DNA from: Paenibacillus sp. FSL R5-0623
GTDB lineage: Bacteria; Bacillota; Bacilli; Paenibacillales; Paenibacillaceae
Length of the DNA: 64,000 nt
Reading direction: 5' to 3'
Assembly (NCBI RefSeq): GCF_037974265.1
Contig: NZ_CP150233.1
Location: forward strand, 5,828,001-5,892,000
Shown here: in pieces, positions 3,609-31,428 of the stretch
How the letters are laid out: every line of letters starts with the position of its first letter
How positions within the stretch are numbered: the stretch's first letter is position 1
The notes under the pieces: generated by a model
What the model saw: the letters and a program-made list of their open reading frames with translations, nothing else
Databases searched by the model: none
What the model was told of the DNA's origin: nothing
Program-made: the position numbers and the translations under genes

Positions 3609-3646
3609 AAGGACACGTATGTATTCCAATGGAATTACGTGTCCTT
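3609..3646 (-). terminator. Terminator of the rsbVW-sigB operon
   Basis: On the minus strand AAGGACACGT pairs with ACGTGTCCTT around an 18-base loop that itself contains ATTCCATTGGAAT. It is followed by TTTTTGGG. It lies 38 bases past the sigB stop codon. Confidence 0.8.
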
Positions 3647-3683
3647 CTCTATGCCGTACTCAACAACATTTGGGTTCCATTTT

Positions 3684-4457
3684 TCATAACATTGAAGCAT
3701 TAGACATGATCTGTTTCAATTTCTCTGTAGCTCGCTTCTGAATCCGAGATACACTCATCTGTGAAACACCAAGCTTCTGGGCAATTGCCCGCTGAGATTG
3801 GCCATCCTGGAATGCTAGAATAAGTACCTGCTGTTCTTGTTCCTTCAATTGTCCCAATGCCTGTTGCAAGTCCATCCGTTTTTCGACCGAATCATAGTCA
3901 TTAACATCTGCACTGATCAGTTCTCCCAATGTTGCTGCACTATCATCCTGAGATAAAGGAGAATCCAGTGATACATAATGGTAACATTCCCGACCAGCCA
4001 GAACTTCAATCGTCTCTTCTGCAGTCAAATCAAGGTATTCAGCAATTTCGTTCACACCGGGTGAGCGCTCCAACTTGACGGTTAACTCATCAATGGCATG
4101 TTGCACAAGGGCTCCCTTTTCCTTAATCCTCCGGGGCACCTGAATATACCAGGATTTGTCACGCAAGTAGTTCTTCATATGACCGATCATGCTCTTCATG
4201 GCATAAGGTTCAAACGGAATACCTAGGTTGATATCGTATTGCTTAAGCAAACGAATCAAAGCCATCTGCCCGGTCTGATACAAGTCTTCGTATAGATCGG
4301 GGCGATTCCGAGCAATTTTACCTGCTGCCATCTTAACCATTGGTTCATATTTACGGATGAGAACTGTTGCAATTTCATTATCTTGGGTCTGCTGGTATTC
4401 CCAGATCAAACCTATAGCTTCAGACATGGACTCTGGGGGAGTCACTTTTTCATTCAT
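3684..4457 (-). CDS. sigB: General stress sigma factor SigB
   Basis: A 257-residue sigma-70 factor of the SigB/SigF/SigG type with no region 1. Region 2 includes DLYQTGQMALIRLLKQYD (core binding) and FEPYAMKSMIGHMKNYLRDKSW (-10 recognition). Region 3 follows, and region 4 is an HTH (GQSQRAIAQKLGVSQMSVSRIQKRA) that would read the -35 element. It overlaps the RsbW gene by four bases (ATGA), the standard translational coupling of a partner-switching operon. Its identity as SigB rather than a sporulation sigma rests on the direct rsbV-rsbW context plus the upstream RsbK/Y/M-like genes. SigB-like promoters occur before stress genes nearby. Confidence 0.9.
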   Translation of the reverse strand: MNEKVTPPESMSEAIGLIWEYQQTQDNEIATVLIRKYEPMVKMAAGKIARNRPDLYEDLYQTGQMALIRLLKQYDINLGIPFEPYAMKSMIGHMKNYLRDKSWYIQVPRRIKEKGALVQHAIDELTVKLERSPGVNEIAEYLDLTAEETIEVLAGRECYHYVSLDSPLSQDDSAATLGELISADVNDYDSVEKRMDLQQALGQLKEQEQQVLILAFQDGQSQRAIAQKLGVSQMSVSRIQKRATEKLKQIMSNASML

Positions 4458-4906
4458 ACTTTCTCCTCACTTCTTGCAAGACGTTTTACGAGTACTACTT
4501 TCGTACCTTTGCCCGTCTCACTTTCCACACTGACATCGTCCATCAAGGCTTGCATCAGGTAGAACCCAAGTCCGCCAATCTGTGCTTCTGTCAGTTCTTT
4601 GTCGTGAAGACCAGCACGTGACACAGCAGGATTCATGTTCTCGAAGCTGGCACCTTCGTCCTTGACAGTAATGGACAATGTTTCGCCTTCCACTTCGAAT
4701 ACAACTTCAACCATGCCACCTTCGTGTGAGTAGGCATACAGTACAGAGTTGTTACAGGCCTCGGATACAGCAACTTTCATATCCTCAATGTCTTCATAAG
4801 AAAATCCCATTTTGGATGCTACCCCATAAAGATTAAGTCTTACAATATCAACGTAATCAGCTGTCGCCGGTAAATTAAGGGTGACTCTTTGAACTTCTGC
4901 ATTCAT
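4454..4906 (-). CDS. rsbW: Anti-sigma-B factor / serine kinase RsbW
   Basis: A 150-residue GHKL-type ATPase. The N-box is in AVSEACNNSVLYAY, the G1 motif in VKDEGASFE, and the G2-like segment in GGLGFYLMQALMDDV. RsbW binds and silences SigB. It also phosphorylates the antagonist RsbV; when RsbV is dephosphorylated, RsbW switches partner and frees SigB. It sits between rsbV (18-base gap) and sigB (4-base overlap), the canonical order. Confidence 0.92.
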   Translation of the reverse strand: MNAEVQRVTLNLPATADYVDIVRLNLYGVASKMGFSYEDIEDMKVAVSEACNNSVLYAYSHEGGMVEVVFEVEGETLSITVKDEGASFENMNPAVSRAGLHDKELTEAQIGGLGFYLMQALMDDVSVESETGKGTKVVLVKRLARSEEKV

Positions 4907-4924
4907 TCCTTTTTCGATCCTTTC

Positions 4925-5263
4925 CTATTGGGAATTCTTCTGTGTGACAAAGAATTTGGCGATGCCCGTCATGTCAAAAAGTTTCTGAATCTGCGCAGGA
5001 ACTTCCTGTACTTCAAAGCGAGCTTCCATTCCATGTCTTGCCTTCAGAACAGATAACAGGATACCAATCCCTGTACTATCGATATACTTCAATTCTTTCA
5101 TGTTAATCACAAGATCCTGTTCCTTGTTATCCACGAGCGGCTCCATCACCAAGCGGAAGTCAGGAGCAACCGACAAATCCAGTTCGCCAGTCAGATACAC
5201 CGTGCACACGCCGTCCTGAGTTTCAGTTCTTGCATTGAATTTTTCATTTTTATTTGTATTCAT
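4925..5263 (-). CDS. rsbV: Anti-anti-sigma factor RsbV (STAS domain)
   Basis: A 112-residue single STAS domain. The conserved phospho-acceptor region YIDSTGIGILL is present around residue 60; the serine there is the expected RsbW target. Dephosphorylation by a PP2C phosphatase, most likely the RsbY-like protein encoded upstream, would let it capture RsbW and release SigB. The start ATG follows GGAGAGAG. A SigB-like promoter 38 bases upstream implies positive autoregulation of rsbV-rsbW-sigB. Confidence 0.92.
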   Translation of the reverse strand: MNTNKNEKFNARTETQDGVCTVYLTGELDLSVAPDFRLVMEPLVDNKEQDLVINMKELKYIDSTGIGILLSVLKARHGMEARFEVQEVPAQIQKLFDMTGIAKFFVTQKNSQ

Positions 5264-5300
5264 TAGACATCTCTCTCCTGATCAATGGTTTCCTTACCTA

Positions 5301-5327
5301 ATAACCCAACTTCAGCACAAGTGAAAC
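5301..5327 (-). promoter_or_regulatory. SigB-type autoregulatory promoter for rsbVW-sigB
   Basis: On the minus strand GTTTCA (5322-5327), a 15-base spacer and GGTTAT (5301-5306) lie in the 86-base gap between the second hybrid kinase and rsbV. Internal SigB promoters before rsbV are the rule in Bacillus. They allow rsbV-rsbW-sigB to be amplified separately from the upstream sensor genes. Confidence 0.6.
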
Positions 5328-5349
5328 AGAAAGGAGTTTGGTAAATGTT

Positions 5350-7026
5350 TCAATTGGCCTGATTCATGGCTGAGGGACCTGGGTCTAACATTTGTCGTTG
5401 TTTCTGAAACTGGGCTATTTTTTGTTTTACATTGCCCATTTTTACCGGTTTACTAATATAATCATCCATGCCGGCAGCAATACAGCGTTGCTGAATACCT
5501 TCCATCACGTTAGCAGTCATCGCTATAATGATTGGCTGATTGGACTGGGACAGGCTCTCTCGAATCCGTCGTGTACATTCCAAACCGTCCATAACAGGCA
5601 TCTGCAGATCCATAAACACATAGTCATAGGGATAACGGCTGCCGTTTACCATATCGAGTGCGCTCTGCCCATCTTCAGCAATGTCTGAGAGCAACCCAAG
5701 CTTACCGAGCATAATCGCCATCAACTTCTGGTTAATCGGATGATCATCCACGATTAATACCGTAGGATATTTATTCTCATTTTTCACATCCGTTGGATTC
5801 TCTTCCCCGTTCCTCTGGACCAGTTCAGTTTCTACATAACGTTTCGCCTGAATTGTGAATACAAACGTTGCTCCCCGTTGCTCTGTTGTATCCAGGTAGA
5901 TCTGTCCACCCATCATTTCAACCAGAGTCTTGCATATTGCCAGTCCTAAGCCAGTTCCACCGTATTTACGTGTCATGGATGTATCCAACTGGGAAAACGG
6001 CTGGAACAGGCGATCCACTTTGTCTGAAGCGATACCTATCCCAGTGTCTTTAACGGCAAACTCCAATGCCATTTGTCCATCCTTTTCTTCCTTAACCGAC
6101 ACGATCAGATACACTCCACCCTGATCGGTAAATTTGATCGCATTTGCAATAAGATTCAAGAGAACCTGACGGAGCCTTGCCATGTCTCCATAGATTAATT
6201 CAGGGACAGAATCTTCCAGGAAATAATCCAGTTCCAGGTTCTTTTTGCCTGCTTCTGCAGCAAACAATCCCAGCACTTCCCGAATACAGGAGACAATTTC
6301 AAAAGGATGCTCTTCAAGTTCCATTTTGCCGGATTCCATCTTGGTAAAATCAAGAATGTCGTTGATGACCGTGACAAGTGCATCTGCGCTGCGACGAACG
6401 ATATCTGCATATTCCTTCTGATCTTCCCTCAGTTCCGTTTCCATCAGCAGATCAACCATGCCGATAACTCCGTTCATCGGTGTACGAATCTCATGACTCA
6501 TCATTGCCAGGAACTCGGTCTTTGCATTGGCTGCAATTTCTGCTTCTTCCTTGGCCTGAATGAGTTGTTGGTTCATTTTCTCCAGTTCCTGTGTCTTCTG
6601 GTGAAGAAGCATGGTCTGTGTCTTCAAACGTTTATTGGTGATAAACATCTCCACAAAGCCCTCGATTTTGGATTTCAAAATCTGAGGAATAAATGGTTTA
6701 ACCATGTAATCAATGGCCCCGGCTGAATATCCGGCAAACAAGTGCTCCGCTTCTCTGCTATTGGCAGAGATGAATATAATCGGCACATCCTTGGACTTGT
6801 CCCGTGCCTTAATTAACTTTGCTGTCTCAATTCCGTCCATTCCAGGCATCTGCACATCGAGAACGATAACCGCAAATTCGTCTTTTAGCAGACAGCGGAG
6901 TGCCTCTTCTCCAGAAGTTGCCTTAACGAGTTTATATTGTTCCGATTCCAGAACTGCTTCAAGAGCAAGCAAGTTCTCAGGGCGGTCATCTACCAATAAT
7001 ATGTGGATTGGTTCATTGAGCCCCAT
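5350..7026 (-). CDS. Hybrid histidine kinase, REC-HisKA-HATPase-REC
   Basis: A 558-residue soluble protein with no transmembrane segment. An N-terminal receiver ([18 protein letters not shown]; phosphoacceptor in [13 protein letters not shown]; lysine in MVKPF) leads through a coiled coil (about 130-165) into HisKA. The phospho-histidine is in [12 protein letters not shown] near residue 176. HATPase_c follows with visible N, G1 and G2 boxes ([16 protein letters not shown]). A second receiver ([30 protein letters not shown]) forms the C-terminus. It lies between the RsbM-like methyltransferase (17-base gap) and rsbV. Inference: an extra phosphorelay input into the SigB switch, since the known B. 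cereus RsbKYM set has only one hybrid kinase. Confidence 0.85.
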
Positions 7027-7042
7027 GGCTAACCCTAACCCC

Positions 7043-7915
7043 CTATTTGATCTTCCGGTATATTTTTTCGGTCCGGTCTAACGGCTCATAGGTATCACTG
7101 AACTCTGTAAAATGTATCGATTCTTTCGACCCCAGAACCAGAATACCAAAGTGGCTCAAGCTCTCATGAAACAGCCCATGCACATGGTTCCGCAGTTCAT
7201 CATTAAAATAAATCATGACATTACGGCAAAAGATAACATTAAACTCGTTAAATGACCGATCCGTTGCCAGGTTGTGCTCGGCGAAAATGATGTTCTTCCG
7301 TAGAAAAGGATGAAATATCACCGAATTGTATTTCGCTGTATAGTACTCGGAGAAGGCTCTGGTACCCCCTGCCTCCAAATAATTTGTAGTAAATAGTTTC
7401 ATTTTTTCAATACCGTATACGCCTTCTTTGGCCTGTTGCAAAGAGCGGTCATTCATATCCGTTGCGTAGATTCTTGCCTTGTCATACAGTCCTTCCTCAT
7501 GCAACATGATGGCCATGGAATAAACTTCCTCGCCCGTAGAGCATCCCGCATGCCATATTCGGATATACGGGTAGGTTCTCAGGATAGGAATAATCTGTTC
7601 CCGAAACATTCGGAAAAGCGAAGGATCTCGAAACATTTCCGTTACAGGGATGGATAAGTTCTGTACAAAACGGTCAAACGCGGAACGGTCATGAAGAACA
7701 CGTTCCTGTAAGCCGGATATGCTCTTAACACCTTCAGCATGTGCATGATGCCAGATTCTTCGTTTCAGGGAGGGCAGTGCATAGTTTCTAAAATCATATC
7801 CATATAAACGGTGCATGCCTTCCAACAGCAACTCAATCTCGATCAGCTCGCGCTCTTCATCTTGCGGCATACGGACCAAATCTGCCCCCGTCTCGGTAGG
7901 TTCCCACGGTGTCAT
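7043..7915 (-). CDS. rsbM: CheR-type methyltransferase, RsbM-like
   Basis: About 290 residues with the CheR plan: an all-alpha N-terminal domain and a SAM-dependent methyltransferase domain ([16 protein letters not shown] binding loop near residue 130; [16 protein letters not shown] near the C-terminus). CheR enzymes methylate glutamates of chemoreceptor-like coiled coils. No CheB or chemotaxis gene is nearby. In the B. cereus group the CheR homologue RsbM methylates the hybrid kinase RsbK and damps SigB activation; the same job is inferred here from the adjacent RsbK-like gene. I prefer ATG 7915, preceded by GGAGAG, over ATG 7936, which has no ribosome binding site. Confidence 0.82.
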
Positions 7916-8001
7916 AAGTTCTCTCCACTTCTTCATTTGTTACTTACGTATTCGTTGTATTGTCTTTCATTACCCAAACAATGAACATACGAATAATGAA
8001 C

Positions 8002-11000
8002 TTACGAATACAGCCATACGCGCATTAAGGATAACAATTGATCTGTCTGGATCGGTTTTTTCACATAATCAGATGCTCCGGCCTCAATACATTTGCCGCG
8101 ATCCTCTTTCATGGCTTTGGCCGTAAGCGCAATAATCGGCAACTTTTCAAACTGCGGGATCTGTCTGATTCGTGTCATCGCTTCATAACCGTCCATCTCT
8201 GGCATCATCATATCCATCAGTACCAGATCAAACTCCGAATTTTTGTCCAAAATCTCCAAAGCCTCTCGTCCGTTCTCAGCAAACGTCACATCCATCCGAT
8301 AGCCTTCAAGAACACTTGAAAGGGCAAATACATTACGAATATCGTCATCTACAAGCAATATTTTCTTGCCTTCAAACAACGTTTCCTTGTTGTGTAGTTT
8401 CTGCAAGATTCGACGCTTATCTTCCGGCAAATTGGCTTCTACCCGATGCAGGAACAATGTAGTTTCATCCAGCAAACGTTCCGGTGACTTCACATCTTTG
8501 ATAATGATGGATTCCGCATATTTGCGCAGCTTCATTTCTTCCTTGGAATCCAGTTCTTTGCCTGTATAAATTATAATCGGCAGATCGTTCAGATATTCAT
8601 CATCGCGAATCTGGTCAAGCAACTCAAACCCGGTCATATCCGTTAACATCAGATCAAGTACCATACAGTCATAACGCTGGCTGTGTAATTCATTCAAAGC
8701 CTCACTACCTGTCGATACAGCGGTGATTGCAACATCATCATGACCAATCAATTCAATAATGGCTTTACGCTGAATTTCATCATCTTCGACGATCAACAGT
8801 CGTTTCAATTGATTCTCGGTATATGATTTGATATGCGAGAATGCTTTATCCAGTGAATCCTTGCTCGAAGGTTTTTTCAGATACGCAATGGCGCCCATCA
8901 TCAGACCTTGCTTCATATCATCAATGACTGAAATCACATGAACCGGAATGTGGCGTGTTGCCGAACTGCTCTTCAGCTCGCCCAGAATGGTCCAACCATC
9001 CATCACCGGCAATTGAATATCCAGGATAATGGCATCCGGCAGATATTGACGTGCCATTTCAAGTCCTTTATCCCCTTGCAGGGCAACAAGTGCTTTGAAG
9101 CCTCTTCCTCTCGCCATATCCATCAAAATATGTGCAAAGTTCACATCATCCTCGATGATGAGGAGGATTTTGTCACTCTCCATGATATTCTCCCGATCAT
9201 CTTCGATCTGCGTGACATCTGGAGTATGGGTAGGAGACAGATCTGTACCCACGCTACGCTCCGGATCAGGAGAGAGAATGGACTGATGACTTGAAAACAT
9301 GGTCCGTGCTTCGATGGACTGTTCATAAAGATCCTCTGAGGAAACAGCCGCTTCTCTTGAAGCACCTTCCTCTGCCAAGGCTTCCTCTTCATGATTATCC
9401 GGCAGGTACAAGGTGAAGCAGCTACCTTCCCCTTCGGATGATTCCACCTGGATTGCGCCACCAAGCAAACGTGCCAGTTCCCTGCTAATGGACAATCCCA
9501 GGCCAGTTCCACCGTATTTCCGACTTGTGGTCCCGTCTACTTGCTGGAACGCTTCAAAGATCAGATCCGTCTTGTCCGATGGAATGCCAATGCCCGTATC
9601 TTTCACACTGAATCCGAGATATTCCTGATTGGTGTTCATATAACCCGGCAGCTCTTCCGGTTTCATCCGTCGTCCAATCAGACTAACCGAACCTCGATTG
9701 GTAAACTTAAATGCGTTCGACAACAAATTCCGTAAAATCTGTTTCACGCGATGACTGTCGGTGTACACCCATTCGGGTAGATCGCTGTCGAAATCGATAT
9801 TCAAGTTCAGTTCCTTTTTATTCGCCATCGGTCCAAAGTTCTGTTGAACAAAGCTGGTCAATTCTTCCATTCGAACTGTCTCATAATTGATATCCATCTT
9901 GCCTGCGTCCACCTTGGACAGATCCAAAATCTCATCAATCATCTTCAGCAGATCCGCGCCCGACATGTAGATGGTTTGCGCATATTCCTGCTGTTTGTCA
10001 GTCAGATTTCCACCCTTGTTCTCCGACAATAACTGGGACAAAATGAGCAGACTGTTCAATGGTGTACGGAGTTCATGTGACATATTCGCTAAAAATTCGG
10101 ACTTGTACTTACTTGTCATCGACAGCTGTGTAGCTTGCTGTTCCAACTGTGTCTTCGTTTTCTCAATTTCGTCATTCTTCTCTTCGACTTCACGAACCTG
10201 CTCTTCAAGCGCCCGCGTCTTGGCAATGAGTTCCGTATTGAAATGCTCCAGTTCTTCCTGCTGACGCTGCAGCAATTCCTCAGATCGTTTAAGCGCCTCT
10301 GTCTGCTCCTCCAGATTCTCATTGGAACGACGAAGTTCTTCTTGCTGTGTCTGCAATTCTTCCGATTGAACCTGCAGTTCCTCAGTCAGTGCCTGGGATT
10401 CACGCAGCAGCTCCTCCACACGCAAACGACGTCGAACGTTGTTCAAAATTACGCCCAGGTTCATAATCAGTTGTGTGAACAACTGCTTGTGAAGTTCATT
10501 GAAACCTTCAAAGGAAGCCACTTCAACTACACCAATCAGTTCATCTTCAAACACGACAGGATAGATCATGATACCCGCAGCACGTGTTGAGCCTGAAGCT
10601 GAACCAATATGAACGTAATCTTCAGGCGTATTTTCCAGAATAATCGGTGTCATATCCAGCGCGGCTTGACCAATCAGGCCTTCACCGATGCGATACATTT
10701 CTTTACCAACATCTTCGTTCTCTTCAAATGCGTATGCACCGTAACGTCTCAATTCGTCGGGATGTTTCTCCTCATCGATCAGATAGACGACACCCAACTG
10801 AGCGCCAAGCACAGGTGTGAACTCACTGATAAACATCTGTGAAATTTGGCGAATAGAGCCAATCCCCCGAAGCAGCTCCGGGACTCTTGCGATGTTCGAA
10901 CTCATCCAGTTTTGATCCTGCTGAGCCTGTACATAAGCCCTCTCGATTTCCAGTTTTTCTTCCAGATCACTGGATACATCTTGGAACACACTGGCAATCT

Positions 11001-11727
11001 GACCAATCTCATCCTTGGATTTGACCTGAATGCGCCGAATGGTTCGATAACGTCCTTTACCAAAGCTGGTAATCATCATAGATACAGTGTTCAGACCCCG
11101 TGTAATACTCGGCAGCACCCACATAATGACACCCAATGCAAGCAACAACCCTGCAATCATGATACTTATCGTGATCTGTACGGCTCTCGTATACGCTGCA
11201 TTAGCGTTCTTGATCTCGGCATCAATCTCTTGGTCCTGATAACGGGAAAGAGCATTCAAACTATCCACAGCTTCTTTTTGCACCGCGAGTCCTGTTGAAT
11301 TGCGGTAGTTATTCGCATCTTCTACCCTGCTTTGGGACATCAGGCTGATCTGTCTCGTTGCATAGGAAGTATAAGCCGTCCACGCAGTATTCACACGATC
11401 CACCAGTTGATGTTCAGGTGCACTGTCTGCTCGGTTTCTTACTTCTACGAGGTTGCGATCGCCTCGATCCTTCATCTCCTTCAGGTCAGCGTCTGCTGCT
11501 GCAGTCGAGTTGTTTGGATTCAATAACAAGTTAGCCAGCACTTTAGCGATATCATTAACCTCTCCGCGTGCAGCAGAAGTGAATCTTACTTTGAGATAAC
11601 GTTCCTGATACATCTGATCTATCTGTTGATTACTGCTGTTCAGCCGTTCATAACTCACAAATGTGAGCACAATCAAAATGGCCATCAGAGCGGTAAAACC
11701 AATCAGCAGTTTATTTCTGATCTTCAT
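8002..11727 (-). CDS. rsbK: Large membrane hybrid sensor kinase with three receivers, RsbK-like
   Basis: A 1241-residue protein. TM1 (about 7-25), an extracytoplasmic four-helix-type sensor (about 30-185) and TM2 (about 188-212) are followed by HAMP, GAF (about 290-430) and a long Gln/Glu-rich coiled coil (about 435-560; EELQVQSEELQTQQEELRRS). HisKA (MSHELRTPLNS near 567) and HATPase_c (DTGIGIP, GGTGLGLSI) come next, then three consecutive receivers (about 870-985, 1000-1115, 1125-1241). Receivers 1 and 3 carry D and K in LDIQLPVMDG/LKKP and MDMMMPEMDG/VKKP; receiver 2 keeps LDLMLTDMTG but ends IIKDV instead of KP. It overlaps the RsbY-like phosphatase gene by four bases. Inference: it senses stress and drives that phosphatase by phosphotransfer; the MCP-like helices are the plausible methylation target of RsbM. 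Confidence 0.85.
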   Translation of the reverse strand: MKIRNKLLIGFTALMAILIVLTFVSYERLNSSNQQIDQMYQERYLKVRFTSAARGEVNDIAKVLANLLLNPNNSTAAADADLKEMKDRGDRNLVEVRNRADSAPEHQLVDRVNTAWTAYTSYATRQISLMSQSRVEDANNYRNSTGLAVQKEAVDSLNALSRYQDQEIDAEIKNANAAYTRAVQITISIMIAGLLLALGVIMWVLPSITRGLNTVSMMITSFGKGRYRTIRRIQVKSKDEIGQIASVFQDVSSDLEEKLEIERAYVQAQQDQNWMSSNIARVPELLRGIGSIRQISQMFISEFTPVLGAQLGVVYLIDEEKHPDELRRYGAYAFEENEDVGKEMYRIGEGLIGQAALDMTPIILENTPEDYVHIGSASGSTRAAGIMIYPVVFEDELIGVVEVASFEGFNELHKQLFTQLIMNLGVILNNVRRRLRVEELLRESQALTEELQVQSEELQTQQEELRRSNENLEEQTEALKRSEELLQRQQEELEHFNTELIAKTRALEEQVREVEEKNDEIEKTKTQLEQQATQLSMTSKYKSEFLANMSHELRTPLNSLLILSQLLSENKGGNLTDKQQEYAQTIYMSGADLLKMIDEILDLSKVDAGKMDINYETVRMEELTSFVQQNFGPMANKKELNLNIDFDSDLPEWVYTDSHRVKQILRNLLSNAFKFTNRGSVSLIGRRMKPEELPGYMNTNQEYLGFSVKDTGIGIPSDKTDLIFEAFQQVDGTTSRKYGGTGLGLSISRELARLLGGAIQVESSEGEGSCFTLYLPDNHEEEALAEEGASREAAVSSEDLYEQSIEARTMFSSHQSILSPDPERSVGTDLSPTHTPDVTQIEDDRENIMESDKILLIIEDDVNFAHILMDMARGRGFKALVALQGDKGLEMARQYLPDAIILDIQLPVMDGWTILGELKSSSATRHIPVHVISVIDDMKQGLMMGAIAYLKKPSSKDSLDKAFSHIKSYTENQLKRLLIVEDDEIQRKAIIELIGHDDVAITAVSTGSEALNELHSQRYDCMVLDLMLTDMTGFELLDQIRDDEYLNDLPIIIYTGKELDSKEEMKLRKYAESIIIKDVKSPERLLDETTLFLHRVEANLPEDKRRILQKLHNKETLFEGKKILLVDDDIRNVFALSSVLEGYRMDVTFAENGREALEILDKNSEFDLVLMDMMMPEMDGYEAMTRIRQIPQFEKLPIIALTAKAMKEDRGKCIEAGASDYVKKPIQTDQLLSLMRVWLYS

Positions 11728-12893
11728 TCATCCCCCGCCCCCTTATCCAAAGTAATCCAGACCAGACATTTATCATCATCCCGCTCCTGGGGAATTTCGT
11801 CGTCAAAAAACATGGCCTGCATGGCAGCTTCATTCCACTGATGTGAGCCGGTCAGTTTTTCAATCAGGAATTCATGTTGTTCCTCCTGCCCGCCCTGAAC
11901 AGCTTCCAATAATCCATCCGTATAGAGTGCAATATGCCCGTCACCCTCGTAATGGATCGTTTGTGGTTCAATATCCATCTTGTCAAATAAACCAACAGGA
12001 CAGCAGACGCTGTCAAATGTGGTGACACTGCCGTCGTTTCGGAAAAATAAAGCAGGTGGATGCCCTGCATTAACATAATCAATGCGCTTCATCCGTGTAT
12101 CAACGACCAGATAAATGGCCGTGAAATAATACTGCACCAATTGTTTTTCCAGATGGAGCTGGTTAAAACGACGGTTCAACTCCTGAATGACCTTCTCTGG
12201 ATCCACATAAGTGGTAACCGTATCTTTCAACACAGACGCAATAAACATGGTAAACAGGGATGAAGATATCCCGTGTCCCATCATGTCGAGCAGCAGTACT
12301 CCGTAACGGCCTTCCCCAAGGGGGTACCAAGAATAGAGATCACCCGCAAGCTCAAAGGATGGTTTATAGATGGCATGCACTTGGAACAACGGGTCCCTAA
12401 TTGCCGGACTTAATACAGCATTTTGGACCATCGCTGCCAACTTAAGCTCATCCTGTATACGTTGATCACGCTCTTTATGCCAATCCTTCTCCTGTTTCAA
12501 ACGAAGTGCGAGTCGAATTCTGGCCATCAGTTCGACTTTATTAATCGGTTTGGTCACATAGTCGGATGCACCTGCATCCAATGCTTCGGCAAGTTTCTTG
12601 GAGTCTCCGATGGCAGTCACCATAATAATCGGTATATCCTTCAGATTCTCAAATTTCTGCACAATACTGCAGGCTTCGATACCGTCCATCTCGGGCATCA
12701 TCATATCTAGCAAAATCAGGTCAATATCCGACGATTTTGGACGAAGTTCGTTGTTTTCCTCCCCAATTCCCAACACTTCAAACATTTCCATGGCGGAACT
12801 CGCCGTTACAATGTCACGATAGTTTTCTTTTTTCAGAATTTCTCGAATGATAATGACATTCGTCGGATTGTCGTCAACAATAAGTATTCTCAT
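11724..12893 (-). CDS. rsbY: Response regulator-PP2C phosphatase, RsbY-like
   Basis: A 389-residue fusion. The N-terminal receiver (residues 1-125; MRILIVDDNPTN, phosphoacceptor in LLDMMMPEMDG, lysine in VTKPI) joins through a helical linker to a SpoIIE/RsbU-type PP2C domain. The PP2C motifs ELAGDLYSW, LLDMMGHGISS, NAGHPPALFF and LYTDGLLEAV supply the metal-binding aspartates. Family knowledge: such proteins dephosphorylate RsbV-P when activated through the receiver. It is the first gene of the minus-strand block and is translationally coupled to the hybrid kinase. The ATG is preceded by AAGGAG. A TATAAT lies at 12956-12961 (minus) without a convincing -35, so the promoter is unresolved. Confidence 0.87.
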   Translation of the reverse strand: MRILIVDDNPTNVIIIREILKKENYRDIVTASSAMEMFEVLGIGEENNELRPKSSDIDLILLDMMMPEMDGIEACSIVQKFENLKDIPIIMVTAIGDSKKLAEALDAGASDYVTKPINKVELMARIRLALRLKQEKDWHKERDQRIQDELKLAAMVQNAVLSPAIRDPLFQVHAIYKPSFELAGDLYSWYPLGEGRYGVLLLDMMGHGISSSLFTMFIASVLKDTVTTYVDPEKVIQELNRRFNQLHLEKQLVQYYFTAIYLVVDTRMKRIDYVNAGHPPALFFRNDGSVTTFDSVCCPVGLFDKMDIEPQTIHYEGDGHIALYTDGLLEAVQGGQEEQHEFLIEKLTGSHQWNEAAMQAMFFDDEIPQERDDDKCLVWITLDKGAGDE

Positions 12894-13426: not shown

Positions 13427-13771
13427 TTAATCTTTCTTTTTAGCAATAACGAGTACTTTACCTTTGTCGAGTTCACTCTCGTAGAAGTCCGCTTCCGCTT
13501 CGGTAAAGCCCATCGAAACAATTTTGGCCCGGAGTTCATCACCACGTGAGCGGAACAGATTCGCCAAGGAATCAAATACGCCTTCTTCCTTAATACCAAT
13601 TTCTTTGGCATCTGCTGTATCAGCAATTCGATCTGTACGATCCTTCTCATGGGCGAGAACAAAGATTTGATCAGGAAGGTATCCGGTAATCTGCAATTCT
13701 TTCACCGCTTCTACCGCCTGGACTCCGTTTTCTACCACTTTTGCATAAGCTTGCTCATTGGTTGAATTCAT
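13427..13771 (-). CDS. General stress protein 17M (YflT-domain) family
   Basis: About 114 residues. The segment KVVENGVQAVEAVKELQ, then GYLPDQIFVLAHEKDRTD, and a C-terminal half with DFYESELDKGKVLVIAKKK match the heat-induced stress protein YflT/GSP17M domain. Bacillus members are SigB-dependent; the molecular function is unknown. I prefer ATG 13771, since GAGGAG is 10 bases upstream, over the in-frame GTG at 13780, which is too close to that site. A good SigB-like promoter lies about 50 bases upstream, and a perfect hairpin terminator follows. It is monocistronic. Confidence 0.82.
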   Translation of the reverse strand: MNSTNEQAYAKVVENGVQAVEAVKELQITGYLPDQIFVLAHEKDRTDRIADTADAKEIGIKEEGVFDSLANLFRSRGDELRAKIVSMGFTEAEADFYESELDKGKVLVIAKKKD

Positions 13772-13820
13772 CGTTTCCACTCTCCTCTGATTTAATCTTC
13801 TGTATCGCGCTACTTAGTAT

Positions 13821-13846
13821 ATAACCATACTATATGGGGTTGAAAC
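13821..13846 (-). promoter_or_regulatory. SigB-type promoter for the GSP17M gene
   Basis: On the minus strand GTTTCA (13841-13846), a 14-base spacer and GGTTAT (13821-13826), 50 bases before the chosen start. It is near-identical to the rsbV element. Confidence 0.65.
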
Positions 13847-13865
13847 GATTCGGTAATAACCAATC

Positions 13866-14399
13866 CTAGGAAACTGTATCATCAAAAAGATCAATGCCTT
13901 CAATCTGCTGAGATCCTGACTTCATATATACCTTCAGAGCCTGGTCTCCACGGAGAAACACTTCTCCGTCCTCTGCCACATAATAAGGTTTCCCGAGAGC
14001 ATGATGGATCGCTTCAATATTCATCTCAATTATCTTTCCGTTTAACATGATGTGATTCTCAGATGCATCGATATGCACATATTGAATAACATCCGTATCT
14101 TCACACAAGCCAACCTTCACATCATGAAAGTGATATTCAGGACACCCCAGATAAGGATCTTCCTGTTTATGCCCGGGCTGGCCCTTCTTGGCCAACAAAT
14201 CATCCATAGTGTCATCCAGAGAAATGCCATTCAGAGTCCGAAAATGCTGGAAAGTCTCGGATCGATCAACAGCCAGAGTTACCTCTGACGCCTTCTCTTC
14301 CATTGCCGTCCATTGCATATCGTGAGCAGCGGGTACCGCTGCCGGCTGAACGGAAAAGGGAGAAATTACGCTAAACATCACAAGCAGTAGTTTCATCAT
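13866..14399 (-). CDS. Secreted protein of unknown function
   Basis: About 177 residues beginning with a clear signal peptide (MKLLLVMFSVISPFSVQ, then PAAVPAAHD as a plausible cleavage region). The mature part has alternating DDTMDDLLAKKGQP and HHALGKPYYVAEDGE segments. These look like two copies of a short beta-alpha unit of the SmpA/OmlA-like or DUF4309-like type, but I do not recognise a family with confidence. One mature-part cysteine pair (LGCPEYHF, VGLCEDTD) could form a disulphide. ATG 14399 has AAAGG nine bases upstream; an in-frame GTG lies at 14408. It follows the DUF948 gene by 68 bases on the same strand and may share its SigB-like promoter. Confidence 0.6.
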   Translation of the reverse strand: MMKLLLVMFSVISPFSVQPAAVPAAHDMQWTAMEEKASEVTLAVDRSETFQHFRTLNGISLDDTMDDLLAKKGQPGHKQEDPYLGCPEYHFHDVKVGLCEDTDVIQYVHIDASENHIMLNGKIIEMNIEAIHHALGKPYYVAEDGEVFLRGDQALKVYMKSGSQQIEGIDLFDDTVS

Positions 14400-14467
14400 G
14401 ATTCTCACCCTTTCATCAGGTTCATCACCGCTCTGAAGGCTTCTTCATGGGTTACAAAGCGGTCATG

Positions 14468-14977
14468 TTACTTGCGCATCCGTTGCCATACATTCGCTGC
14501 AAGATCAATATACTTCATCCAGTTTTTCCCGCCCTTAGCTTCACCATTATATGTAGCTTCATAGGATTGCAAGGTACGATCCGTTGATGTAGCAGGAGGT
14601 GCAGTTACATGAACCGATTCAGCATGCTTGGTCTGTTCAGCGTTGTTACGTTTGGTTTGAAATTTCGCCATCAGCGTTGTGGAGACTTGTTTGGCTGCTG
14701 CCGTCACTTCATTCAACACTTCACCCAGATTCTCAACAGATTCCATAACAGGATCAATTTTTTTCATTTTGTGCTGTACATCCACCGTAATATCATTGGC
14801 GTGTCTTACTGTCTGCTTCACTTCATAACTAAGTTCATCAATGGTTTTCTGTACCTCCTGCAATGTCTGTGAGACATTGTCCAAAGAACTTTGAGCGGAT
14901 TTCAAGGTACGAATTAAAAAGAATACCAGTACTGCAAATGCCACTGCAATCAGGGCCACGCTAATTTGATAGATCAT
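14468..14977 (-). CDS. DUF948 (YtxG-like) membrane-anchored coiled-coil protein
   Basis: A 169-residue protein with one N-terminal transmembrane helix (about residues 4-24). A long coiled coil follows (LKSAQSSLDNVSQTLQEVQK, then TIDELSYEV and MESVENLGEVLNEV), then a low-complexity Thr/Ala region and a basic C-terminus (WQRMRK). This is the DUF948/YtxG plan. In Bacillus ytxG sits beside ytxH in the stress regulon; here the YtxH-type gene lies 13 kb away. A SigB-like promoter with GGGTAA lies 48 bases upstream and is divergent from the one serving the DUF1328 gene. Confidence 0.75.
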   Translation of the reverse strand: MIYQISVALIAVAFAVLVFFLIRTLKSAQSSLDNVSQTLQEVQKTIDELSYEVKQTVRHANDITVDVQHKMKKIDPVMESVENLGEVLNEVTAAAKQVSTTLMAKFQTKRNNAEQTKHAESVHVTAPPATSTDRTLQSYEATYNGEAKGGKNWMKYIDLAANVWQRMRK

Positions 14978-29599: not shown

Positions 29600-29765
29600 T
29601 GGTGAGGTAGAGGTCGCGGGTGCGATCAGTATGCTGATGGAGGCGCTAAGGAGCCGCTTATGAGATCAGCCGAAAGGTGTACCCGCCGAAGCTTGCTGGA
29701 CGTTCCTTATACGGTCCGGTGAGCTGGGGCTGCTGTCGAAAGGCGCAGAACTGTCACGGAAGCAC
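29600..29765 (+). ncRNA. Lysine riboswitch (L box)
   Basis: The order of conserved L-box blocks is present: GAGGTAGAGGTCGCG near 29602, AGTA near 29628, GGAGGCGCTAAGGAGCCG, GCCGAAAGGTG near 29671, CGCCGAAGC near 29687, GGGCTGCTGTCGAAAGGC near 29727 and ACTGTCACGGA near 29750. L-boxes fold around lysine and usually shut off downstream genes by terminator formation. A terminator hairpin follows at 29847, ahead of a LysP-type permease, which fits lysine-repressed uptake. Confidence 0.88.
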
Positions 29766-29846
29766 ATTTCCTTTATATAAAGGTATGAATTCTTCTGTGT
29801 TGAGCTATCTTAATCATCTGGACATGGTGCGGACATTGAAATATTA

Positions 29847-29931: not shown

Positions 29932-31428
29932 ATGCAAGACCGCAGTAACCCAACAACAACAACAACAACAACAACTGGACCTTCCCTGAAAAAAGGATTA
30001 CGCGCACGCCATATGACGATGATCGCCCTCGGTGGCTCGATTGGTACCGGGCTGTTTCTCGCAAGTGGTACCGCCATCTCAACCGCAGGCCCTGGTGGAG
30101 CATTAATTGCCTATGTGGCCGTTGGCATCATGGTTTATTTCCTAATGACCAGCCTTGGTGAGCTTGCTACCTTTATGCCGGACTCCGGTTCATTTAATAC
30201 GTATGCCGCACGTTTTGTCGATCCTGCTCTCGGGTTCGCCATGGGCTGGAACTTCTGGTACAACTGGGCGGTAACTATTGCAGCAGAGCTTGCTGCCGCT
30301 ACTGTACTCATTAAATACTGGTTCCCTGACAGTTCGTCCATGTTATGGAGCTTATTATTCCTCGTGCTGATCTTTTCCTTGAACGTGTTGTCCGTTAAAG
30401 GCTATGGAGAGTCCGAGTACTGGTTCGCCATTATCAAAGTCGCTACTGTTATCATCTTCCTGGCCGTTGGTGTGCTCATGATCTTTGGTATTATGGGCGG
30501 AGAAGCGGTTGGTTTCAGTAACTTCACCATCGGTGATGCGCCCATCCATGGCGGATTCTTCGCCGTGTTAGGCGTATTCATGGCTGCGGGATTTTCATTC
30601 CAAGGTACCGAGCTTATCGGGGTAGCCGCCGGTGAAAGTGAAAACCCGCGCGAAAATGTACCTCGTGCAATTCGTCAGGTATTTTGGCGCATTCTGATTT
30701 TTTACATTTTGGCGATTACCGTAATCAGTTTGATCATCCCGTATACGCATCCGAATCTGCTCAAAGGTGATCTGGAAAATATCGGTGTCAGCCCGTTCAC
30801 ACTGGTGTTTGAGAAAGCTGGACTCGCCATTGCAGCTTCCGTGATGAATGCCGTTATTCTGACTTCTGTACTCTCTGCCGGTAACTCAGGCATGTACGCT
30901 TCAAGTCGGGTTCTCTATGCCCTTGCCCGTGACGGTAAAGCCCCTCGTTTCCTGGGCAAGCTGAACAAAAAAGGCATTCCAATGAATGCACTTTTGCTTA
31001 CAACAGCCGTTGGTATGTTAGCATTCCTTGCCTCCCTGTTCGGCGATGGGATTGTGTACACCTGGTTGCTGAATGCATCCGGTATGTGTGGTTTCATCAC
31101 TTGGCTAGGTATCGCTATCAGTCATTATCGCTTCCGTCGTGCATACGTTGCACAAGGCAGGGATCTGAGCGATTTGCCTTACCGTGCACGCTGGTTCCCG
31201 TTTGGGCCCATCTTTGCTTTTGTCCTGTGTATCATCGTGATCATCGGACAGAATTATCAGGCATTCACGGGTGATCAGATCGACTGGAGTGGAGCCATCG
31301 TTGCCTACCTGAGCGTACCCCTGTTCCTGGTGTTGTGGCTTGGTTACAAATGGATCAAAAAGACCAAAGTGGTGCCGCTGCAGGAATGTGATTTCACACC
31401 TACTGATTCACCAAGTGACAAGCACTAA
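29932..31428 (+). CDS. lysP: Lysine-specific amino acid permease
   Basis: A 498-residue APC-superfamily transporter with twelve transmembrane helices. The hallmark GGSIGTGLFLASGTAISTAGP occupies TM1. FSFQGTELIGVAAGESENPR is in the TM6 region, and SAGNSGMYASSRVLYALARDG follows later. The sequence belongs to the amino-acid permease group that includes LysP; the upstream L-box riboswitch fixes lysine as the probable substrate. The cytoplasmic N-terminus carries eight consecutive Thr encoded by an (ACA)n tract. GAAGGAG precedes the ATG. Downstream is a terminator at 31517. Confidence 0.88.
   Translation: MQDRSNPTTTTTTTTGPSLKKGLRARHMTMIALGGSIGTGLFLASGTAISTAGPGGALIAYVAVGIMVYFLMTSLGELATFMPDSGSFNTYAARFVDPALGFAMGWNFWYNWAVTIAAELAAATVLIKYWFPDSSSMLWSLLFLVLIFSLNVLSVKGYGESEYWFAIIKVATVIIFLAVGVLMIFGIMGGEAVGFSNFTIGDAPIHGGFFAVLGVFMAAGFSFQGTELIGVAAGESENPRENVPRAIRQVFWRILIFYILAITVISLIIPYTHPNLLKGDLENIGVSPFTLVFEKAGLAIAASVMNAVILTSVLSAGNSGMYASSRVLYALARDGKAPRFLGKLNKKGIPMNALLLTTAVGMLAFLASLFGDGIVYTWLLNASGMCGFITWLGIAISHYRFRRAYVAQGRDLSDLPYRARWFPFGPIFAFVLCIIVIIGQNYQAFTGDQIDWSGAIVAYLSVPLFLVLWLGYKWIKKTKVVPLQECDFTPTDSPSDKH

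Follow-up and report, generated by a model that had tools for sequence, protein, structure and literature searches.

What does a second hybrid kinase contribute to a locus that already carries an RsbK-type route to the sigma factor SigB? The window analysed here, a 64,000-nucleotide stretch from Paenibacillus sp. FSL R5-0623, encodes the kinase RsbK, the phosphatase RsbY, the methyltransferase RsbM and an RsbV-RsbW-SigB partner switch, and an additional kinase that we call HK2. The first-pass annotation of this DNA had left open whether HK2 feeds or drains the phosphate flow to RsbY. Based on sequence comparisons and a predicted structure, we lean slightly towards the reading that HK2 is a second-tier kinase: RsbK would phosphorylate its N-terminal receiver, and the HK2 core would act on RsbY, freeing SigB.

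Organization of the locus

Open reading frame and domain searches of the window place seven genes in the order rsbY-rsbK-rsbM-HK2-rsbV-rsbW-sigB (Table 1). The coordinates and domain matches agree with the genes, domains, position and strand described in the first-pass annotation. All seven lie on the minus strand, unlike the rsb genes of B. cereus, which are mixed in orientation. Neighboring genes overlap by 4 nt (rsbY/rsbK and rsbW/sigB) or are separated by 65 (rsbK/rsbM), 16 (rsbM/HK2), 86 (HK2/rsbV) and 18 nt (rsbV/rsbW). The description of a contiguous block with small gaps and overlaps therefore holds for the genes, but the block probably comprises two transcription units rather than one, because a sigma-B-like promoter separates HK2 from rsbV. 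A promoter of this type is present ahead of rsbV in 15 of 38 relatives, and none was found before rsbY within the window.

Table 1. Features of the sigB block and its upstream neighbor (window coordinates)
Feature	Position	Strand	Description
rsbY	11724..12893	-	REC + PP2C (SpoIIE) phosphatase, 389 aa; domain match
rsbK	8002..11727	-	membrane hybrid kinase, 4HB sensor-GAF-S-helix-HisKA-HATPase-REC1-REC2-REC3, 1241 aa
RsbK S-helix	10108..10410	-	residues 440-540; alignment; putative RsbM target region, as in B. cereus
RsbK DHp (HisKA)	9901..10104	-	domain match
RsbK REC3	8026..8361	-	domain match and residue check
rsbM	7043..7936	-	CheR-type methyltransferase, 297 aa
HK2	5350..7026	-	REC-HisKA-HATPase-REC, 558 aa
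HK2 N-terminal receiver	6664..7002	-	D13, D14, D57, K110; proposed RsbK target
HK2 kinase core	5845..6525	-	HisKA (H178) + HATPase
HK2 C-terminal receiver	5422..5766	-	domain match
sigma-B-like promoter, GTTTCA-N14/15-GGGTTAT	5301..5327	-	64 nt before rsbV; motif match
rsbV	4925..5263	-	STAS anti-anti-sigma factor, S63
rsbW	4454..4906	-	anti-sigma kinase; NCBIfam NF003144 passed, TIGR01924 not
sigB	3684..4457	-	SigB/SigF/SigG-family sigma factor, 257 aa
YflT-domain stress gene, upstream of block	13427..13771	-	own sigma-B-like promoter at 13821-13846

The downstream genes have the features of a partner switch, with a phosphorylatable serine in RsbV, an N-box in the RsbW kinase and a sigma factor gene in the overlapping operon. 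The sigma factor scores 201.8 bits against the cut-off of 315 for the curated SigB equivalog (NCBIfam TIGR02941) and 203.6 bits against 234.35 for the SigBFG subfamily model. Because the TIGR02941 score is under the cut-off, the name SigB, which the first-pass annotation had given without reserve, leans on the partner genes and synteny.

The absence of stressosome and RsbU genes, first noted for the window, holds across the 6.97-Mb genome as far as PF01740 and PF07228 searches show: neither RsbR/RsbS STAS proteins nor an RsbU-type phosphatase was found. PF07228 matched RsbY, an 864-residue frame similar in size to SpoIIE, and, weakly, a frame whose start resembles that of PrpC; RsbY was the only RsbU/RsbP-like phosphatase found by this search. 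STAS matches to PF01740 comprised RsbV, a 119-residue protein (similar in size to SpoIIAA) and three proteins of 485-609 residues, two of which resemble SulP permeases in their first residues. A domain search found no HPt domain in the block, and the three Hpt matches in the genome all lie outside it, in open frames of 574-1083 residues. At a related locus (L026), a 337-aa PAS protein was rejected as RsbP, as its domains are PAS-GGDEF. RsbQP is reported in Paenibacillus in the accessible text of PMC9847131, whereas the present genome lacks a separate RsbP-like phosphatase.

Conservation of RsbK, RsbY, RsbM and HK2

The domain sets and the intact, conserved active-site residues support the assignment of RsbK, RsbY and RsbM. 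Domain matches and alignment give RsbK a membrane sensor, a GAF domain, a coiled S-helix, HisKA/HATPase domains and a C-terminal REC; it differs from B. cereus RsbK in its sensor, which matches 4HB_MCP and not CHASE3, and in having three C-terminal receivers rather than one. H551 and the REC3 residues are intact in 26 of 26 aligned sequences; REC1 and REC2 are missing from some relatives or degenerate there. The RsbK DHp has the highest mean identity of the domains measured in the block (85%, 29 loci); the S-helix averages 72%. The acceptor D63 and the metal-binding Asp of RsbY are intact, and its active-site residues are kept in 25 of 25 loci. A second RsbK-like kinase, unlinked to the block, is encoded in the same genome and counts against a series of two kinases.

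RsbM is a CheR-type methyltransferase linked to rsbK; the genome contains one further CheR match. Of the 116 genomes in the same family that carry SigB, 108 also have RsbM. The distance between SigB and RsbM, compared in 100 of these 108 (8 were left out), is at most 4 kb in 96, 5.6 kb in 2, and unlinked in 2. HK2 is a disfavoured target of RsbM, as HK2 occurs in six of the eight genomes without RsbM and RsbK in none. In B. cereus, the substrate region of RsbM is the RsbK S-helix (PMC4574943, accessible text).

HK2 matches kinase and receiver domains only, with no match to a membrane or other sensor domain, and its active-site residues are intact and conserved in the alignment; its best NCBIfam match, BarA, falls below the cut-off. 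Mean identities across 29 loci are 81% for the HK2 N-terminal receiver (N-receiver), 78% for RsbK REC3, 71% for the RsbY REC and 56% for the HK2 C-terminal receiver, making the N-receiver the best conserved receiver in the block. Six of the 27 aligned orthologues lack the C-terminal receiver. In an AlphaFold2 model (pTM 0.36), residues 114-195 form one long helix joining the N-receiver to the DHp. HK2 and RsbK differ in sequence inside the DHp segment associated with partner choice. In three related loci (L024, L026, L074), HK2 contains an insertion that on visual inspection resembles a PAS domain. We found no description of HK2 (REC-kinase-REC) in the literature within reach, outside of which lay one key survey on RsbK homologues. 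This survey, De Been et al. 2011, reportedly covers gene context as well and might mention a neighboring kinase.

Distribution of the HK2 N-receiver

A search of 299 Bacilli genomes (E<=8e-42) gave 46 N-receiver matches among the at most 13 candidates scored per genome. Even with different outputs behind the receiver, 44 of the 46 adjoin RsbM or an RsbK-type kinase: by coordinates, 36 directly adjoin RsbM, one (L116) adjoins RsbK within an RsbK-RsbM cluster, and seven adjoin their own RsbK-type kinase in loci without RsbM or RsbY. The exceptions are L145 and L146. The alpha-1 sequence of the receiver is largely preserved while the output domain varies. Among the 18 RsbK-RsbM-HK2 loci whose fetched stretch contains no RsbY, 14 have KinA-like kinases, 3 BarA-like kinases and 1 a GGDEF-EAL-LuxR protein; the KinA-like label is taken from a motif, and the BarA-like label also draws on the below-cut-off match of HK2. 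Two loci count against a series of kinases: in L117 the N-receiver persists where only an RsbK fragment matches, and in L113 RsbK is split over two frames.

RsbK, RsbM and RsbY occur without HK2 in nine Bacilli loci, and in one Cohnella an RsbK-type kinase adjoins rsbY while an RsbK-RsbM-HK2 set lies at another place. Because of these arrangements, RsbK-type kinases are probably able to serve RsbY directly.

HK2 as a Paenibacillus-only addition was rejected, since RsbK-linked HK2 matches occur outside Paenibacillales. Among the best 80 matches of a scan seeded with HK2, 16 of 53 loci outside Paenibacillales gave a single HK2 alignment spanning the N-receiver, and an RsbK-type kinase is found in 13 of these 16 loci compared to 0 of the 37 others (several contigs are short). 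HK2 presence in L001-L079 is biased by this seed; the RsbM- and SigB-anchored searches are free of the bias. Sets of an RsbK-type kinase, CheR and a REC-kinase occur in Bacteroidota and other phyla, and no sigB was found in the fetched loci carrying them. In 13 such loci an RsbK-type kinase accompanies an HK2-homologous REC-HK(-REC) protein, nine of them with CheR. Like the window's set, L021 and L028 have partner cores that cluster with HK2 (98/80); unlike it, L028 and L042, the two loci examined for this feature, have CheB adjoining CheR, and no RsbY-RsbV-SigB set was found in the 13. We found no published name for sets of a multi-receiver kinase, CheR (and CheB) and a REC-kinase. Because HK2-containing sets occur in other phyla, it is the B. 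cereus-like loci that look like the deviating ones, lacking HK2, and the earlier statement that this locus gains a second kinase probably has the direction wrong.

Natural losses and a fusion in relatives

We inspected the sigB or RsbM locus in 23 of 246 order-level genomes (L131-L133, L153-L172). In all eight SigB-positive family genomes without RsbM, rsbK is also missing at the locus, and no full RsbK-type kinase was found elsewhere among up to 82 candidates scored per genome. An HK2 core nevertheless adjoins rsbY in six of the eight, between rsbY and rsbV. Five of these six cores, all from one genus and possibly the result of one event, have no N-receiver but keep intact H, N and G boxes. 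RsbW is present in all reduced loci. The N-receiver retained in G506 despite RsbK loss counts against a serial arrangement, as do L154 and L158, where rsbY is retained but no kinase is linked to it. The shortened cores are altered in the DHp partner segment and form a long branch in the core tree, which includes four of the five and carries a long-branch warning for the L119 and L039 HK2. This change could mean that HK2 came to target RsbY only once RsbK had gone.

In two further loci (L159, L160), the single kinase beside rsbY joins an RsbK-like sensor half (38-39% identity to RsbK) to an HK2-clade core (58-61% identity to HK2 versus 37-39% to RsbK; tree support 99/97 and 100/93). The core tree and segment comparison rejected them as plain RsbK-only loci; no RsbM match or N-receiver was found for either. 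RsbK loss in P. arenosi (L022) was rejected, as an RsbK-type kinase lies unlinked on another contig. Because RsbK-less loci keep an HK2 core beside rsbY, mostly without the N-receiver, and a fusion kinase occurs there as well, feeding, with HK2 below RsbK, is favoured over draining.

Discussion

We infer the phosphotransfer steps, the methylation and the sign of the HK2 effect as follows. Stress would alter the membrane/GAF sensor of RsbK, which RsbM would otherwise keep down by methylating the S-helix, as in B. cereus. Active RsbK would pass phosphate from H551 to D57 of the HK2 N-receiver, whose state would set the activity of the HK2 core through the long predicted helix. The core would then act on the RsbY receiver, most simply by phosphorylation; RsbY would dephosphorylate RsbV, RsbV would trap RsbW, and SigB would be set free to increase rsbVW-sigB expression from the promoter that separates HK2 from rsbV. 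Direct transfer from RsbK to RsbY, as in B. cereus, may run alongside.

Alternatively, RsbK may phosphorylate RsbY directly and, separately, the HK2 N-receiver, with HK2 driving another target such that the stress signal leaves the SigB route. The KinA-like and GGDEF-EAL outputs in the 18 loci beside RsbK-RsbM, the nine loci without HK2 and the difference between the two DHp domains are all consistent with such branching. We nevertheless consider it rather unlikely, given that six of the eight genomes that lost RsbK and RsbM retain HK2 between rsbY and rsbV and that the RsbK-sensor/HK2-core fusion adjoins rsbY.

These reduced loci also bear on a draining role, in which HK2 would work chiefly as a phosphatase or sink for phosphate, whose receivers would take RsbK phosphate and whose core would strip RsbY, setting a threshold or ending the response. 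Many HisKA kinases also act as phosphatases, and HK2 brings two extra receivers to a block with no HPt. In B. cereus, RsbK is inhibited by its C-terminal REC (PMC4574943, accessible text). However, a pure phosphatase in the six RsbK-less loci would have no linked kinase opposing it, the shortened cores keep their motifs, and the C-terminal receiver is often absent, making this role improbable. Still less probable is that HK2 senses a cytoplasmic signal of its own and converges on RsbY without a link to RsbK. Its intact kinase motifs, lack of a membrane domain match, position beside rsbV and the PAS-like insertions in three relatives would fit, but the window's HK2 matches kinase and receiver domains alone, the N-receiver keeps company with RsbM or RsbK-type kinases almost throughout, and it is missing in five of six HK2 genes without RsbK at family sigB loci.

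Having the whole route in one block, as the first-pass annotation pointed out, is shared with B. cereus, where rsbV, rsbW, sigB, rsbY, rsbM and rsbK lie within one cluster (bc1002-bc1008; PMC9912610, accessible text). The two also share a GAF/S-helix hybrid kinase, a REC-PP2C RsbY, RsbM and the RsbV-RsbW-SigB switch (PMC4574943, PMC9912610); HK2 between rsbM and rsbV sets the window apart. The genes rsbK, rsbY and rsbM have been recorded in Paenibacillus, from two genomes, and RsbKY/RsbM modules are also listed for B. coagulans (PMC9847131); the accessible part of that account gives neither HK2 nor gene order for Paenibacillus. A precedent for a sensor kinase phosphorylating another kinase is SagS of Pseudomonas aeruginosa, a membrane hybrid kinase whose target in the two-component system BfiSR is BfiS; the proteins and output differ, and the accessible text of PMC5976881 does not describe a partner-switching sigma factor.

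RsbK-like kinases have been reported in 10 phyla (PMC4574943, citing other work), and, as far as that and related accounts go, only the B. cereus output has been worked out. We tentatively suggest, at somewhat lower confidence than the second-tier role of HK2, that RsbK-type kinases signal via an adaptor receiver of their own, represented by the HK2 N-receiver family, which in evolution has been fused to BarA-like kinases, to KinA-like kinases with a possible input to the sporulation relay, and to c-di-GMP enzymes. The result in Paenibacillaceae would be an RsbK-HK2-RsbY cascade in which methylation controls only the top tier. The N-receiver offers a testable rule for the partner of RsbK, with natural deletions and fusions available in relatives. 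If the proposal is true, a general stress sigma factor would lie downstream of two serial kinases, and in other Bacilli a similar sensor may feed into the control of sporulation or c-di-GMP.

The seven-gene block and its known relatives

Gene positions and Pfam domains confirm that rsbY, rsbK, rsbM, HK2, rsbV, rsbW and sigB lie on one strand, as the first-pass annotation had proposed. RsbW exceeds the NCBIfam cut-off for NF003144 and falls below that for TIGR01924; because the sigma factor is below the curated NCBIfam SigB cut-off, it is named SigB by its partners.

Genes of the block in order of transcription (window positions)
Order	Gene	Position	Strand	Domains (Pfam)
1	rsbY	12893-11724	-	REC-SpoIIE phosphatase
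2	rsbK	11727-8002	-	4HB_MCP-GAF-HisKA-HATPase + three REC
3	rsbM	7936-7043	-	CheR_N-CheR
4	HK2	7026-5350	-	REC-HisKA-HATPase, two REC in all
5	rsbV	5263-4925	-	STAS
6	rsbW	4906-4454	-	HATPase_c_2
7	sigB	4457-3684	-	Sigma-70 regions 2, 3 and 4

A YflT-domain stress gene sits upstream of the block. Proteins with YflT, DUF948, YtxH and DUF5665 domains, which resemble general stress genes, are encoded nearby (1651-2507 and 13427-14977). Elsewhere in the window, a lysine riboswitch (29600-29815, 97.5 bits) lies immediately 5' of an ORF (29932-31428) that by eye is amino-acid-permease-like.

According to the portions of the sources available, the RsbK/Y/M set and rsbVW-sigB share one cluster in B. 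cereus (PMC9912610), and Paenibacillus has been reported to carry rsbKY and rsbM (PMC9847131). The B. cereus RsbK has a single, inhibitory receiver (PMC4574943), whereas the window's RsbK has three. No description of HK2 was found in the accessible parts of the literature on RsbK, RsbY, RsbM, Paenibacillus, CheR and hybrid kinases, including PMC7522486, PMC10950880 and PMC5976881; de Been et al. 2011 was outside this coverage. As far as this search reached, the second kinase is undescribed, and the core around it is already known.

The motif GTTTMA-N13-15-GGGTTA, which we take to reflect the sigma-B consensus, has a single occurrence in the window against 0.03 expected, 64 nt 5' of rsbV; a looser pattern occurs twice (expected 0.05), the second time before the YflT gene. 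Among 38 loci of relatives, 15 have GTTTMA-N13-15-GGGT(T)A in the 200 nt preceding rsbV (in 13 of these the second element is GGGTTA, at -60 to -66) and 23 do not; from its frequency in the rest of these loci, 0.0036 per locus would be expected. For the region ahead of rsbY, another loosened scan gave nothing in the window and weak hits in 2 of 25 relatives. Given a motif before rsbV and none before rsbY, the block probably splits into two transcription units, one with the sensor genes and the other an autoregulated rsbVW-sigB. One sister genus has the motif in front of rsbY instead of rsbV in its six reduced loci.

The rest of the genome

The genome (one contig, 6.97 Mb, 99.99% complete) yielded three SpoIIE-family phosphatases: RsbY, an 864-residue frame presumably of SpoIIE size, and a weak match whose first residues we take to be PrpC-like. 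The five STAS matches were RsbV, a 119-residue protein (of SpoIIAA size, we assume) and three proteins 485-609 residues long; the first residues of two of these are presumably SulP permease-like. These searches revealed no RsbU/RsbP-like phosphatase other than RsbY and no stressosome, so the reported absence of both RsbU and a stressosome extends from the window to the whole genome. There are two CheR matches and three Hpt matches, the latter within frames of 574 to 1083 residues. A second, 919-aa RsbK-like kinase (L180:8576-11335; G000:C1 about 3933075-3935834) has S-helix repeats, an RsbK-type DHp and, in its C-terminal part, a match to the last RsbK receiver. No RsbM, RsbY or HK2 was seen beside it in a 19-kb stretch; this kinase could be a further input to the SigB route.

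Conservation of HK2 and its association with RsbK

An HK2-seeded scan of genome contigs (best 80 kept, so that HK2 presence is biased by the seed) gave 79 loci, 26 from Paenibacillales. All seven genes stand in identical order in 23 of these 26, 19 of them compact; in four (L018, L019, L020, L024) HK2 and rsbV are about 2.5 to 4.5 kb apart. In L022 no rsbK is linked, and L026 and L074 keep rsbK-rsbM-HK2 side by side, their rsbY and sigB lying elsewhere. Two RsbV-RsbW pairs occur in Gorillibacterium (L024:15803-19653), and two SigB-RsbW sets lie close together in L161. All 27 HK2 sequences share residues D13, D14, D57, K110, H178 and N295, and 6 of the 27 have no C-receiver. In RsbK, every one of the 26 sequences keeps an intact REC3; a few lack REC1 and REC2 or carry them in degenerate form. 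Mean pairwise identity across 29 loci is 85% for the RsbK DHp, 81% for the HK2 N-receiver, 78% for RsbK REC3, 77% for the HK2 DHp, 72% and 70% for RsbK REC1 and REC2, and 71% for the RsbY receiver; the HK2 C-receiver averages 56% in the 22 loci that have it.

Outside Paenibacillales (53 of the 79 loci), 16 loci align to HK2 in one piece through the N-receiver. An RsbK-type kinase is present in 13 of them, nine with a CheR match, and absent from L035, L038 and L041; it was found in none of the remaining 37. In both Bacteroidota loci checked, CheB methylesterase adjoins CheR. These neighborhoods argue that the partnership of HK2 with RsbK is old.

Among 299 Bacilli genomes, 46 were RsbM-positive (weakest match 6e-89). 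Of 22 loci read, 12 have RsbM-HK2 and RsbK with no RsbY in the stretch (L113 and L117, whose RsbK is described below, are counted here), nine have RsbK-RsbM but lack HK2 and encode RsbY on the other strand, and one locus, belonging to the window's family, has every component. The N-receiver search (up to 13 candidates scored per genome) gave 46 matches at E 8e-42 or better, the next only at 9e-25. Thirty-six directly adjoin RsbM and one (L116) adjoins RsbK of an RsbK-RsbM cluster. Four genomes of the window's family hold second copies, seven in all; each copy adjoins an RsbK-type kinase of its own, and its locus contains neither RsbM nor RsbY. L146 follows rsbY on a 6-kb contig, and L145 is alone.

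Several individual loci deserve mention. RsbK matches in two overlapping frames in L113:10367-13704 and only as a fragment at about 9065-9450 in L117; both loci retain RsbM and the N-receiver protein, and either error or decay could explain the RsbK matches. At L138:2593-8301, adjoining a REC-kinase, lies an RsbK-type kinase of 1902 aa that combines ten HAMP matches with GAF and three receivers. Two RsbM matches (G398:C17:150716-151603 and G416:C1:3964122-3965006) are nearly full length with one in-frame TAG each, for which a sequencing error or a recent loss may account.

Natural losses, a natural fusion and the probable position of HK2

Among 246 genomes of the order, 203 have SigB and 207 RsbM; in the window's family (120 genomes) the counts are 116 with SigB, 108 with SigB and RsbM, and eight with SigB only. 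All eight SigB-only loci were read, and none has rsbK or rsbM. G506 keeps rsbY, HK2 (N-receiver and core, no C-receiver) and rsbVW-sigB. Five genomes of one sister genus keep rsbY, an HK2 reduced to its core (255 to 308 aa, in which the H, N, D and G boxes are retained) and rsbVW-sigB. Other members of that genus have RsbM, among them G166 with the full block. G364, also of this genus, is one of the eight and has rsbY and rsbVW-sigB, nothing more. In G428, rsbY is convergent to rsbVW-sigB. A search for RsbK elsewhere (E 1e-60, up to 82 candidates scored per genome) found none in G428 and, in the other seven, only kinases of 486 to 496 residues that match part of the query at 49-50% identity; the window's own genome and G166 have kinases of this type as well. 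Judging from these loci, the HK2 core can remain next to RsbY where RsbK is absent, and such cores often lack the N-receiver.

Two further genomes, G457 and G461, have rsbY, one kinase and rsbVW-sigB, with one additional gene separating kinase and rsbV in L159 and no RsbM match at E 1e-40. The first half of this kinase resembles RsbK (38 to 39% identity); the core shares 58 to 61% identity with HK2 and 37 to 39% with RsbK. In a tree of 69 cores, with RsbK-type (100/99) and HK2-type (99/97, of the order) clades, both fusion kinases fall inside the HK2 clade, grouped with the HK2 of L168 (100/93). Because the fusion is common to both genomes, assembly error is unlikely. By eye, the seam comes after part of the RsbK S-helix and ahead of the HK2 linker, so a single deletion from rsbK through rsbM into HK2 could have produced it. 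The fusion suggests that an RsbK sensor can couple directly to the HK2 core.

Based on the losses, the fusion and the neighbors of the N-receiver across Bacilli, the simplest reading is a series that would run from RsbK to the HK2 N-receiver, from there to the HK2 core, and on to RsbY. An AlphaFold2 monomer model (mean pLDDT 77.9, pTM 0.36) predicts one helix from residue 114 to 195, which fits a receiver steering the kinase. Some observations run counter to a series. In nine Bacilli loci and one Cohnella, an RsbK-RsbY pair stands without HK2, and direct RsbK-to-RsbY transfer may therefore also run. The shortened HK2 cores are altered within DHp, which may reflect re-aiming after RsbK loss. 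The N-receiver is retained in G506, and in L117 beside a broken RsbK; RsbY is retained without any linked kinase in two loci. The additional kinase of the first-pass annotation is present, within a core set that was already known, and HK2 appears to be a conserved tier, probably between RsbK and RsbY.

One receiver, changing outputs

Eighteen RsbK-RsbM-HK2 loci lack RsbY in the stretch: the 12 RsbM-anchored loci and L026, L074, L164, L166, L170 and L172. Behind the N-receiver, 14 carry outputs that we take to be KinA-like, three presumably BarA-like ones, and one (L116) PAS-GGDEF-EAL-LuxR. The alpha-1 sequence of the N-receiver varies little despite these differing outputs, and the RsbK DHp is near constant across output groups, the pattern expected if the N-receiver is the cognate receiver of RsbK. 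A fusion of the N-receiver to PAS-PAS and a KinA-like kinase adjoins RsbK-RsbM in L110, L114, L119 and loci like them. Such fusions are a possible entry of an RsbK-type sensor into the sporulation phosphorelay. In L116:3718-6174, the N-receiver (start shortened as read), fused to PAS-GGDEF-EAL-LuxR, adjoins RsbK-RsbM; this fusion would hand an RsbK-type sensor a c-di-GMP output.
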